A stretch of 57,163 nt of DNA. Origin: a bacterium (lineage in GTDB: Bacteria; Patescibacteriota; Gracilibacteria; Peribacterales; Peribacteraceae). The stretch covers positions 1 through 57,163 of the forward strand of contig JAKQEM010000024.1 of the NCBI GenBank assembly GCA_029558515.1, in the 5' to 3' direction. Shown here in pieces: positions 51,106 through 57,163 of the stretch (the stretch's first letter is position 1; every line of letters begins with the position of its first letter). Below the pieces are notes generated by a model. It did not search any database and was not told the DNA's origin. It saw nothing but the letters and a program-made list of their open reading frames with translations. A program made the position numbers and the translations under genes.

Positions 51106-51591
51106 ATGCGTATCCTCGGTATCGACCCCGGCTTGGCAACCATCGGCTTGGGGCTCCTCAACGCCCCGTCCCGCAGCAACCTGCACGTGGTCGAATGGCT
51201 GACGATCACGACGCCCGCAGGCATGCCCCTCCCCGATCGACTCTGCGAGATCCGGACAGATTTGAGCGCGTATCTGGATGATCAAAAACCGGAATTGGTG
51301 GTGATCGAGCGACTGTTTTTCGCCACCAATGAACGAACGGCCATTGATGTCGCCCAAGCGCGCGGCATCATCGTGCAGACGGTGGCGGAACGGGGGCTGC
51401 CGATCATCGAACCCACGCCGCTCCAGATGAAACAAGGCATCACGGGCGACGGCTCGGCGGATAAATCACAAGTGCAAACGATGCTCGTGACCGAACTGAA
51501 ACTCCCCTCCGTCCCCCGGCCGGATGATGCCGCCGATGCATTGGCTCTGGCATTCTACGGAGCCTTGGTCTATCCAAACAATACGAAATGA
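51106..51591 (+). CDS. ruvC: Holliday junction resolvase RuvC
   Basis: Dimeric endonuclease resolving recombination junctions. 161 residues from ATG 51106: 'MRILGIDPGLATIGLGLL' (first catalytic Asp at 7), 'PELVVIERLFFATNERTAID' (Glu), 'ARGIIVQTVAERGLPI', 'PLQMKQGITGDGSADKSQVQ' and the final acids in 'RPDDAADALALAFYG'. ruvA and ruvB are not adjacent. The upstream in-frame ATG at 51064 gives non-conserved residues. Confidence 0.95.
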   Translation: MRILGIDPGLATIGLGLLNAPSRSNLHVVEWLTITTPAGMPLPDRLCEIRTDLSAYLDDQKPELVVIERLFFATNERTAIDVAQARGIIVQTVAERGLPIIEPTPLQMKQGITGDGSADKSQVQTMLVTELKLPSVPRPDDAADALALAFYGALVYPNNTK

Positions 51592-51664
51592 CCAAGCCAC
51601 AATGACCAATGACCAACACTCGTCGAAGAAATTTGGTCATTGGGATTTGGTTATTGGTCATGAT
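51588..51664. repeat. Heptad-repeat array between convergent ruvC and recF
   Basis: AATGACC-AAGCCAC-AATGACC-AATGACC-AACACTC is followed by TTGGTCA-TTGGGAT-TTGGTTA-TTGGTCA, all at a 7-base period. CCAATGACCAA (51606-51616) and TTGGTCATTGG (51633-51643) are perfect 11-bp arms. The tract starts in the ruvC stop and extends into the last codons of recF. Probable bidirectional stem. Confidence 0.75.
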
Positions 51665-52760
51665 CAACCATCCATTCCCCATCCCTCATCCTCCACACCG
51701 TCGCTTCCTCCACGTGCGCCGGTGCACGCACCGCCGTCATCAACACCTGGCAATCCGTCAATCGATGAAGCAGTGCCGACTGATGAGCGTCATCCAGTTC
51801 GGAAAAGACGTCATCGAGGAGGATGACCGGACGCTCCCTGCGTCGCAGCTGCAGATACGACACTTCCAGGAGCAGGAGAGCCACCACCGCCACCCGCTCC
51901 TGTCCGCGCGATGCAAAAGTCGAAAGCGGTCTGCCGTCACACAGAATGTGCCAATCCTCCCGATGGGGACCCACCGTCGTCGACTGCAGGGCTATATCGC
52001 GCTGACGGGCATGCAAGAGGAGTTCCAGAAGCTCCCTTTTGAGATCCTCCAAGTTCCGACCGGTCGTCTTCCGCACAGGGCAGAGCGTTGCCTCCCCCCA
52101 CGTTTCCCCGAGTCCCGCCATTTCCGCCGCAAACGAGAGATCCAGAGCGGCCAGAAGCTCGAGCCGGGCCAGCGTGAGAGGAGCACCTTTCTCCGCGAGT
52201 TCCCGATCCCACACATTGAGCGCGGACGGCGGATAACGGCCATCGGCGATTTGTCGAAGCAGTGCGCCGCGTTGCTTGAGCACCTTCTGATACGCGGCGA
52301 AAGCGGGAACGTAGGATTGATCTGCCTGACTGAGGAGCTGATCGAGGAACCGTCGACGATCCGCCGGCGCCCCGCTGAAGAGCTCCAGATCCTGCGGGAG
52401 GAAAATCACAACCGGCACCGTTCCGATTGCATCTGTGAGAGGAATGCGCACATCATTGAGGAAAGCAGCCTTACGACGTCGCGGCGTGATTTCACTGAGC
52501 ACTTCGATGCGGCTGCGTTCCCCGACATCACTGCGAATCTCCGCGCGTAAGCGGTAGAACGATCGGCCCCAGTGCACCAAGTCCCCCTCTTCTTTTCCCC
52601 GGCAGGACTTGCCGAGAGACAGAACGGACATCGCTTCCAGCAAATTTGTCTTGCCGCTGCCATTGGGCCCGATGAAAAGCTGCACATCACGATCGGACAG
52701 GAGGACGGTCTGCCGCACATAACTGCGAAACTGCTCGAGCTGGAGACTGACGATACGCAT
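51651..52760 (-). CDS. recF: Recombination mediator RecF
   Basis: ABC/SMC-like ATPase loading RecA at gaps. 369 residues from ATG 52760: 'MRIVSLQLEQFRSYVRQTVL', Walker A 'FIGPNGSGKTNLLEAMSVLS', 'VVIFLPQDLELFSGAPADRR', signature region 'STVGPHREDW' and 'FASRGQERVAVVALLLLEV', Walker B 'VILLDDVFSELDDAHQSALL'. Not in the classical dnaA-dnaN-recF order. The start overlaps the NUDIX stop by one base (TAATG). The last codons are altered by a heptad-repeat tract. Confidence 0.95.
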   Translation of the reverse strand: MRIVSLQLEQFRSYVRQTVLLSDRDVQLFIGPNGSGKTNLLEAMSVLSLGKSCRGKEEGDLVHWGRSFYRLRAEIRSDVGERSRIEVLSEITPRRRKAAFLNDVRIPLTDAIGTVPVVIFLPQDLELFSGAPADRRRFLDQLLSQADQSYVPAFAAYQKVLKQRGALLRQIADGRYPPSALNVWDRELAEKGAPLTLARLELLAALDLSFAAEMAGLGETWGEATLCPVRKTTGRNLEDLKRELLELLLHARQRDIALQSTTVGPHREDWHILCDGRPLSTFASRGQERVAVVALLLLEVSYLQLRRRERPVILLDDVFSELDDAHQSALLHRLTDCQVLMTAVRAPAHVEEATVWRMRDGEWMVDHDQ

Positions 52761-54803: not shown

Positions 54804-56222
54804 ATGGATACTCACACACGACTCCGATACGATGGTTTCGTGCAACCCTTCAACCGCTTCACCTTCGACTCGTACGGCTTCGATCCTGCAACCGGCAAGA
54901 TCGCGCTGCGCTACAGCCTGGATGATGTCATTCGTTTCACCGAAACGCTCACTCTTCCGCAATCTTCAACCTACAGCCTAGAACCTACCCCCTCCCTCGA
55001 CCGCGCGCTCTTCGCCCTGCACCTCATCGGCGGCATCAGCTACTTCAAGACATGCCTGCCCAAAACCATCGATATCCGTTCCGGCAGCCTGACCCGGGAG
55101 CAAGCGGAATTCTGGAACACCGTCTACGAGCAGGGGCTGGGAGAATTTTTCTATAAAAATAAGATCGATCCGAAGGGGAGAATCCGGTTCCCACATACCT
55201 CCACCCCCCGACCCCCTCCTCCACGAGAGGAGGGGGGGCATCCTCGTGAGATGCGCTTGATGGTGCCTGTCGGAGGCGGCAAAGATTCCGCCGTGACCAT
55301 CGAACTTCTGCGTAAAGGAGGATACGACATGACCCTCTTCAGAGTAGGTGGCCACCCGCTCATCGAACGCTTCGCCGAGGAAGCTCGCAAACCGCTGCTC
55401 ACCGTCAAACGCACGCTCGCTCCCGCCCTCTTTGACTTGAACGCCCAAGGCGCGCTCAACGGCCACGTCCCCATCTCCGCCTACCTCTCCTTTCTCGCAG
55501 TTGTCATCGGAGAACTGCAGGGCTTCACGCACGTCGTCTTCAGTTCGGAGCGCAGCGCCAATGAGGGAAACGTGCACGTGGGCTCCTCCATGATCAATCA
55601 CCAGTGGAGCAAGAGCATCACATTCGAACGCATGCTGCAGGACTACCTGCAAACGTTCGTCACCGGGAACGTACGATTCTTCAGCCTGCTGCGCCCGCTC
55701 TCGGAACTGCACATCATGCAGATCTTCTCGACGTATCCGCAGTACTTCGACCGCTTCACCAGCTGCAATAAGAACTGGAAGATTGCGAAAGCTACGAGTG
55801 ATCAGTTACGAGTGACCGGTGAGAAATTGCAGACTCAAAACTCAATAGGATTATGGTGCAATCACTGTCCCAAATGCGCATTCACCTTTGCGCTCCTCTC
55901 CGCCTTCGTGCCGCGGGAACAACTGCTGGCGATCTTCGGTGCCGATCTCTTTGCCGATGCGACGTTGCTGCCGCTCTACCGCGAACTGCTGGGTCTCACA
56001 GGCATCAAACCGTTCGAATGCGTCGGCACGCCGGAGGAAGTGGCTGCGGCACTTCTCCTGGCGGATGAAAGGGGTGAATGGGGAGATGCAGCGGTGCTGC
56101 ACATGTTCCGCACGGAAGCACTCGACCGTTTTGCTTCTGCGGATGCCATCATCAATGCGCTCCTCCTCCCTTCGAAAGATCATGCCATCCCCGAGGAATT
56201 CCTCTCTGTTCTCCCCACATGA
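54804..56222 (+). CDS. murL: MurL: UDP-MurNAc-L-Ala-L-Glu epimerase
   Basis: Predicted ATP-dependent epimerase that inverts L-Glu to D-Glu on UDP-MurNAc-L-Ala-L-Glu, the MurD2/MurL alternative to glutamate racemase (described in Xanthomonas). Identification rests on the adenylating loop 'MVPVGGGKDSAVTIELLRKG' (~150-170), 'SSERSANEGNVHV', 'SITFERMLQDYLQTF', the Cys-rich 'GLWCNHCPKCAFTFALLSAF', and overlap with murD (ATGA). ATG 54804 is chosen: it follows a GGAGGAAGGA Shine-Dalgarno, and earlier ATGs overlap tRNA-Leu. It contains heptad tracts (54964-54993, 55793-55852) and a 10-bp-stem palindrome (55212-55236) coding 'STPRPPPPREEGGHP'. Confidence 0.85.
   Translation: MDTHTRLRYDGFVQPFNRFTFDSYGFDPATGKIALRYSLDDVIRFTETLTLPQSSTYSLEPTPSLDRALFALHLIGGISYFKTCLPKTIDIRSGSLTREQAEFWNTVYEQGLGEFFYKNKIDPKGRIRFPHTSTPRPPPPREEGGHPREMRLMVPVGGGKDSAVTIELLRKGGYDMTLFRVGGHPLIERFAEEARKPLLTVKRTLAPALFDLNAQGALNGHVPISAYLSFLAVVIGELQGFTHVVFSSERSANEGNVHVGSSMINHQWSKSITFERMLQDYLQTFVTGNVRFFSLLRPLSELHIMQIFSTYPQYFDRFTSCNKNWKIAKATSDQLRVTGEKLQTQNSIGLWCNHCPKCAFTFALLSAFVPREQLLAIFGADLFADATLLPLYRELLGLTGIKPFECVGTPEEVAAALLLADERGEWGDAAVLHMFRTEALDRFASADAIINALLLPSKDHAIPEEFLSVLPT
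54964..54993. repeat. Heptad tract inside murL (first)
   Basis: AACCTAC-AGCCTAG-AACCTAC-CCCCTCC at a 7-base period. Codes the 'TYSLEPTPS' stretch near residue 60. Confidence 0.55.
55212..55236. repeat. Perfect 10-bp inverted repeat inside murL
   Basis: CCCCCTCCTC-CACGA-GAGGAGGGGG. Codes a Pro/Arg/Glu/Gly linker just before the adenylating loop. Confidence 0.8.
55793..55852. repeat. Heptad tract inside murL (second)
   Basis: ACGAGTG-ATCAGTT-ACGAGTG-ACCGGTG-AGAAATT-GCAGACT-CAAAACT-CAATAGG. Codes 'SDQLRVTGEKLQTQNS' immediately before the Cys-rich motif. Confidence 0.6.
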
Positions 56223-57163
56223 GCATCGAAGAACTCAACGGCAAAACCGTGTGCATCCTCGGCTTCGGACGGGAGGGGAGAGCGATGCTCGACGCCATCG
56301 AACGGGAACGGATTGATTGCCGTGTCACTGTGGCGGATCAGAATGAGGAATGCAAAACGCAACATGCAACATGCAACATGCAAGTGGGAAAAGAATGGCT
56401 CGATGATCTCGATCGTTTCGACGTCATCATCAAATCCCCGGGCATCCCACCGAACACAGCACTCACAACTCATCACTCAAAACTGACCAACTCAACCCAG
56501 ATCTTTCTCGACACCATCCTCGCTCGAGGCGCCCTCGTCATCGGCGTGACGGGCAGCAAGGGGAAAAGTACGACTTCCAGCCTCATCCACGCCATTCTTC
56601 AAGCACACGAACGGGAGCAACACCCTACAACCCACCACCTACAACCTACCACCTTTCTCGTCGGCAACATCGGCGAACCCTCCATCGCGCACATCGATGA
56701 AGCAAATCCACACACGATCTTCGTGCTGGAAATGAGCAGCTACCAACTGATGGATCTGACGACGAGCCCGCCGATCGCGGTCATCACAAGTTTTTTCCCG
56801 GAACACCTCGATTACCACGGCGGTCTGGAAGCCTATCGGGATGCGAAGGAACACATCTCGCGCTTCCAGGATGACGAAGACATGGTCTTCTTTTGCGCGG
56901 ATTCACCCGGAGCGGTCGCAATCGCACAAGAGGGCGACGGTCGCAAGATCCCCTTCTCCGGTACGGATGCGCCCGTGCCCATCGAGCAAACGCACCTCAT
57001 CGGCGCGCACAATCTCCGCAACATCGGAGCAGCCACGTTGGTGGCGCGAGAGCTGGGCATCCCGGACTCAACGATCGTCACCGCAATCAAAGAGTTCCAC
57101 GGACTCCCCCACCGCCTGCAGCGCATCGGCGTCATCGGCGGCATCGAGTGGATCGATGATGCG
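56219..57163 (+). CDS. murD: MurD-type UDP-MurNAc-L-Ala--glutamate ligase (partial, 3' end outside)
   Basis: Open to the window edge: 315 codons from ATG 56219, which overlaps the murL stop (ATGA). N-terminal 'NGKTVCILGFGREGRAMLDA', 'VIIKSPGIPPNTA', ATP loop 'GVTGSKGKSTTSSLIHAILQ', 'VGNIGEPSI', 'FVLEMSSYQLMDL' (MurD's E-(L/M)-SS-(F/Y)-QL), 'FFPEHLDYHGGLEAYRDAK', and 'GAHNLRNIGAATLVARELG'. In MurL systems the partner MurD2 adds L-Glu rather than D-Glu; adjacency suggests that here. Three heptad tracts are in frame (56348-56386, 56455-56500, 56622-56656) and give insertions such as 'QHATCNMQ' and 'HPTTHHLQPTTF'. Confidence 0.93.
   Translation, partial: MSIEELNGKTVCILGFGREGRAMLDAIERERIDCRVTVADQNEECKTQHATCNMQVGKEWLDDLDRFDVIIKSPGIPPNTALTTHHSKLTNSTQIFLDTILARGALVIGVTGSKGKSTTSSLIHAILQAHEREQHPTTHHLQPTTFLVGNIGEPSIAHIDEANPHTIFVLEMSSYQLMDLTTSPPIAVITSFFPEHLDYHGGLEAYRDAKEHISRFQDDEDMVFFCADSPGAVAIAQEGDGRKIPFSGTDAPVPIEQTHLIGAHNLRNIGAATLVARELGIPDSTIVTAIKEFHGLPHRLQRIGVIGGIEWIDDA
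56348..56386. repeat. Heptad tract inside murD (first)
   Basis: AAAACGC-AACATGC-AACATGC-AACATGC-AAGTGGG, exact 7-base period, three identical copies. Confidence 0.8.
56455..56500. repeat. Heptad tract inside murD (second)
   Basis: CACTCAC-AACTCAT-CACTCAA-AACTGAC-CAACTCA, degenerate 7-base period. Codes 'LTTHHSKLTNST'. Confidence 0.55.
56622..56656. repeat. Heptad tract inside murD (third)
   Basis: CTACAAC-CCACCAC-CTACAAC-CTACCAC at a 7-base period, between the ATP-loop helix and the 'VGNIG' strand of MurD. Confidence 0.65.

Follow-up and report, generated by a model that had tools for sequence, protein, structure and literature searches.

Rickettsia palindromic elements, reportedly treated by Ogata in 2000, are among the described systems closest to the tracts analyzed here. 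They measure 105 to 146 bp, carry terminal inverted repeats, form long stem-loops, and occur in frame in protein genes (PMC2229807). Heptameric repeats form a second described kind: TAACTGA repeats occur in the Beggiatoaceae and cyanobacteria, and those inside genes mostly lie in hypothetical genes or at the termini of proteins (PMC4679880), and GGGAATC repeats occur in Xanthomonas/Nostoc (PMC4692102). The tandem repeats of Borgs have in-gene units divisible by three, often in extracellular or membrane proteins (PMC9879509).

The tandem 7-nt units (heptads) found in murL and murD of a member of the Peribacteraceae resemble each of these systems in part. Like Rickettsia palindromic elements, they are dispersed in spacers and fused in frame in conserved protein genes, where they are apparently tolerated; unlike them, heptad runs are mostly 30 to 45 nt long and direct, do not fold within genes, and differ in sequence by genome. 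The analogy with these elements drawn by an earlier sequence-only reading thus stands with regard to in-frame occurrence in genes and spacers, and fails on size, terminal inverted repeats, and stem-loop. With the heptameric repeats (TAACTGA, GGGAATC, and the cyanobacterial STRR), the heptads share a unit of 7, dispersal through the genome, greater frequency in noncoding DNA, and the presence of some copies in reading frames; those reports, however, concern one or a few words per genome, whereas here many words coexist, at internal core-enzyme sites and across genera. Like Borg tandem repeats, the heptads originate independently in genes and spacers and are genome specific, but their unit remains 7 nt inside genes and is indivisible by three. 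The inverted-pair heptads of spacers can form hairpins, as in REP/BIME and MITE-like elements, but heptads lack a conserved body or ends; the CCCTCTCCC palindromes beside DUF559 genes (see below) fit that comparison better.

Heptameric repeats are, then, a known kind, and the new aspect is that genome-specific words recur at internal core-enzyme sites across genera; we found no earlier report of genome-specific heptads at the same internal core-enzyme sites in the open-access literature. Genes would be expected to purge repeats with a unit indivisible by three, yet here such repeats are recurrent in core enzymes. This opens the question of how selfish or by-product DNA makes its way through coding sequence and renews protein loops; the arrays would also constitute a natural record of insertion-tolerant enzyme segments, and they bear on the dominance of heptamers among bacterial tandem repeats, for which the cited papers offer no mechanism.

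Heptad tracts in murL and murD

The window (the whole stretch of DNA that was analyzed, 57,163 nt) comprises bases 1 to 57163 of a 163,926-base contig (C44) from a genome (G000) of 1.31 Mb and 54% GC; it ends in a murL-like gene followed by murD (Table 1). MurD matched solved MurD chains, which were used for alignment only, and its single-sequence AlphaFold model had a pLDDT of 38.7; no solved structure matched MurL. The sole Rfam match in the region was a tRNA.

Table 1. Features of the window and of the adjoining part of murD (positions are those of the window unless stated)
Feature	Position	Strand	Remarks
GAGTATT array with inverted CAATACC partner just downstream	21537..21564		Fold z -2.9
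TGACCAA inverted pair, hairpin between convergent genes	51585-51690 (heptads 51590..51664)		RNA fold -33.2 kcal/mol, z -3.8
murL-like gene	54804..56222	+	UDP-MurNAc-L-Ala-L-Glu epimerase family; NCBIfam NF041275, E=5e-119 (397.7 of 700 bits, under the curated cut-off)
murL tract 1, CAACCTA-type, weak	54960..54996	+	Residues 53-65; score 12
murL palindrome, CCCCCTCCTC-CACGA-GAGGAGGGGG, in frame	55212..55236	+	10-bp stem; peptide PRPPPPREEGG
murL tract 2, degenerate composite heptads, ACGAGTGATCAGTT / ACTCAAA	55793..55852	+	Lag-7 score 7, lag-14 score 11
murD	56219..57163, continuing past the window	+	TIGR01087, E=3.5e-55 (in-window part); full length 448 aa
murD tract 1, AAATGCA/AACATGC array	56341..56383	+	Residues 41-55; score 24
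murD tract 2, ACTCAAA-type array	56448..56484	+	Residues 77-89; score 12
murD tract 3, CTACAAC/CTACCAC array	56620..56654	+	Residues 134-146; score 16; peptide PTTHHLQPTTF
murD tract 4	Contig 57416-57448, past the window, same gene	+	Score 12

The sequence-only reading had claimed heptad tracts in both genes with the frames kept open, three exact AACATGC copies encoding QHATCNMQ in murD, and a CTACAAC/CTACCAC tract lengthening the loop before VGNIG, all of which hold. Both frames are open through all tracts, of which murD has three in the window and one beyond, and murL one weak and one degenerate. The AACATGC copies in murD tract 1, which encodes that peptide, lie at 56361 to 56381 (shuffles expect 0), and the site is variable in length, with heptads in 11 of 30 genera. 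At the site of murD tract 2 (residues 78 to 93), the loop is 16 aa long in 26 of 30 genera, and arrays are present in 12 of the 30. The loop between the P-loop helix and VGNIG, which contains murD tract 3, measures 21 aa, versus 10 aa in most relatives (+11 aa). The loop at murL tract 1 has a length inside the family range, and that at murL tract 2 (residues 326 to 352) has ~15 aa inserted versus a 12-aa base loop.

Judged by loop length, murD tract 2 is a replacement at constant length, and murD tract 3 and the murL 326–352 loop are real insertions. Since the length of murD tract 2 is constant and that of tract 1 lies in the normal range, some tracts are not indels. The insertion model put forward for the tracts, with its expectation that indels would coincide with them on alignment to relatives, therefore fits murD tract 3, the murL 326–352 loop, and long loops at large, which usually hold heptads or palindromes, but not murD tracts 1 and 2.

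Period-7 arrays throughout the genome

Arrays were defined by a lag-7 score of at least 12 in genome scans and at least 10 in the comparison of murD/murL orthologues. The first 1.2 Mb of G000 contain 183 period-7 arrays, versus 4 in a Markov-3 control. For the whole genome, the number is 207, i.e., 73 coding, 49 straddling gene ends, and 85 intergenic (as split by a simple hexamer gene caller over all but ~1 kb of the genome), so heptads do occur in spacers as well as genes, as had been suggested. Array density is 6.8 per 10 kb in noncoding DNA, with straddling arrays counted as noncoding, versus 0.66 in coding DNA. At least one array is present in 57 of 1,188 called genes, among them genes for SecA, CarA, triosephosphate isomerase, archaeal/V-type ATP synthase subunit A, a phosphohexomutase, an RsmF-like methylase, and a MutY-like glycosylase, although several family scores of array-bearing genes fall under curated cut-offs. 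Coding arrays roughly equal spacer arrays in length and purity (median, 33 versus 34 nt; purity, 85% versus 82%) and so do not look older. Among other periods, periods 5, 10, and 11 yield 3 to 5 arrays each and period 13 yields 12; period 8 accounts for a second set, comprising 55 arrays of the AACGGAGT/AACAGAAT type, and 8 is likewise no multiple of three.

The genomes used are mostly metagenome assemblies, which might suggest chance or an assembly artefact, but we find this explanation scarcely credible given the large excess over Markov and synonymous-shuffle controls. Period-7 arrays are also carried by the relative G030, a single contig (with array data covering about half of that genome), and the ATGCAAA family is present in isolates, e.g., Tumebacillus avium and Anabaena sp. 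4-3.

Recurrence at the same sites across genera

Thirty murD orthologues, each from a different genus, contain 37 period-7 arrays versus a mean of 4.95 in synonymous-codon shuffles (periods 5, 8, 10, and 11 produce 0 to 2 arrays), and 22 murL sequences contain 13 versus 1.35. This excess over synonymous shuffles places the signal at the DNA level. Protein coiled-coil heptad periodicity is out as a source, the period being 7 nucleotides and the signal falling on such shuffling. Nearly all arrays in murD sit at residues 41 to 56, 77 to 93, 129 to 146, or 400 to 416, and their words vary by genus (AAACTCA, CCCATAA, AAGATGC, CTCACAG, CAAATCG, and others). The simplest reading of this recurrence would be that permissive sites acquire arrays independently or turn them over fast.

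Net lengthening accompanies the arrays at several of these loops. At murL 326–352, heptads or palindromes are found in 9 of 12 long loops versus 0 of 10 loops of base length (p=0.0004), and heptads or hairpins are similarly distributed at murL 128–150 (6 of 9 versus 1 of 13), murD 396–416 (9 of 14 versus 2 of 14, p=0.009), and murD 128–148 (2 of 4 versus 0 of 25, p=0.015). Within G000, 20 in-gene arrays lie in genes whose alignment to a single relative (G030) spans the array; 12 of these arrays coincide with a net insertion of 4 aa or more, versus 8.4% of segments drawn at random from those genes (p=8e-9).

It is conceivable that the tracts are functional, either as protein linkers or as regulatory sites under selection of their own. 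Spacer arrays are scarcer between divergent genes (0.44/kb, versus 0.93 and 0.84) and, between tandem genes, cluster just past the upstream stop codon, which would suit terminators. We nevertheless hold function to be highly improbable: both words and peptides at the MurD sites differ between genera, many genera have no array at a given site, and the composition of in-gene arrays follows from stop avoidance, as set out next.

Reading frame and coding strand

Because 7 and 3 share no common factor, each of the three frames on a strand translates a heptad array into one and the same cyclic peptide: for AACATGC, whose 21-nt cycle visits all three frames, that peptide is NMQHATC, and the frames differ only by rotation. 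On either strand an array is thus open in all frames or in none, leaving selection to filter only stop codons and total length. The supposition that each net insertion must have been selected for frame is correct insofar as total length is filtered, but does not extend to the array itself. The sense strands of coding arrays are A+C-rich (mean, 67%). For words such as ACTCAAA and CTACAAC this is the stop-free strand, and we attribute the composition of coding arrays to stop avoidance. We judged phase variation unlikely for a general reason: a slip of one unit would frameshift an essential gene. Two G000 loci (C19:9759-9907 and C38:70467-70573) have both arms of an inverted heptad pair inside one gene; these arms belong to the AAATGC family, whose word is stop-free on both strands.

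Shared words and the origin of the arrays

Two arrays of G000 belong to one family with a probability of 0.020 (null, 0.0027), and two from the covered part of G030 with a probability of 0.111 (null, 0.0065), both nulls being composition based; for array pairs between the two genomes, the probability is 0.0007. Six murD/murL words, each taken from one genome, were sought in 40 genomes, and each was found in just 2 to 5. Five of the six were also found elsewhere in their source genome: GCTCACA, for instance, has five further sites in G018, and CCCATAA has five sites in G030. The exception was CTCAAAA, from the murD of G006, which had no exact recurrence elsewhere in G006. On this pattern of word sharing, heptad families are genome specific. 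Some words do seem to be favored beyond a single genome, as over 117 stretches from many phyla contain 28-mers of the ATGCRAM family, versus ~0.002 expected from base composition alone at equal base frequencies.

Unit similarity along arrays declines from 0.76 at distance 1 to 0.28 at distance 11, which argues for unit-wise copying with errors, though weakly, since array detection itself favors similar neighbors. No MutS was detected in 19 of 20 family genomes, including G000 (99% completeness), and was found in 11 of 14 control genomes. Absence of MutS should free slippage and recombination between diverged arrays. Under purely local slippage, heptads arising by chance would act as seeds and expand where they stand, at sites of low constraint and without exchange between loci, and MutS loss would make this common. 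Such an account would suit the missing MutS, the decay of unit similarity, and the word-by-word shifts within composite arrays. We rate this account as rather unlikely, however, because independent seeds should give unrelated words, whereas within-genome collisions reach 7 to 17 times the composition null and between-genome collisions fall below it. As slippage alone leaves the words shared within a genome unexplained, we propose copying between loci.

We think it probable, with some reserve, that each genome spreads copies of its heptad DNA among its loci and that such copies last within genes only where they are stop-free, keep the frame, and are tolerated. The tracts belong to a set of degenerate tandem 7-mers that spans the genome, and each genome has dominant words of its own. 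These words would be copied between loci, mutating as arrays grow, through slippage during replication together with template switching or ectopic conversion from other arrays. Missing mismatch repair would favor such copying, and a near-neutral effect on the enzymes is assumed. In spacers, about a third of arrays form inverted pairs able to fold into hairpins; in genes, single arms would persist given a stop-free strand, a frame-neutral net length, and a permissive site. The need for these three to coincide would explain why the same few MurD/MurL sites are colonized repeatedly across genera, with either a longer loop or a replaced sequence of constant length.

The constant length of murD tract 2 argues against simple insertion. 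These cells may even have a copying activity that proceeds in fixed 7-nt steps (with a minor 8-nt mode) and overwrites or extends DNA from a near or distant heptad template, although we regard this as a long shot; if true, it would alter sequence at constant length and thereby spread in coding DNA without frameshifts, renewing permissive protein segments.

Inverted pairs, palindromes, and DUF559

Among 38 neighboring array pairs less than 200 bp apart, 26 matched best in inverted and 9 in direct orientation, and 31% of noncoding arrays have a complementary partner within 120 bp, versus 0% with shuffled flanks. Many spacer arrays being inverted pairs, the heptads might be carried by a dedicated mobile element, as proposed for Rickettsia palindromic elements, perhaps via an endonuclease such as DUF559; palindromes like those flanking DUF559 genes occupy the same loops in frame, and two MurD proteins carry DUF559 itself as an in-frame insertion. 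We consider such an element distinctly unlikely: the murD heptad arms fold no better than shuffles (z 0.85 and 0.11), heptad arrays have no fixed ends or constant body, and heptads lie near just 1 of 12 DUF559 loci. DUF559 was set aside as the heptad driver on this last count.

The murL loop with the in-frame palindrome of Table 1, a feature absent from the sequence-only reading, carries other hairpin or heptad sequences in relatives. GC-rich in-frame palindromes, including this one and those in the murL genes of L039, L040, L041, L050, and L052, lie in murL loops that hold heptads in other genera.

The DUF559 nuclease-like domain (PF04480) is present in 28 of 36 family genomes and is inserted whole and in frame in the MurD of two genera (L018 in G025 and L020 in G023). 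The two insertions occupy different C-terminal loops and are adjoined by GC-rich palindromes, on both sides in L018. Across the 12 DUF559 loci (L325 to L336), most stand-alone copies are flanked on both sides by CCCTCTCCC-loop-GGGAGAGGG hairpins, and the stand-alone gene with its flanking hairpins looks like a mobile unit with palindromic ends.
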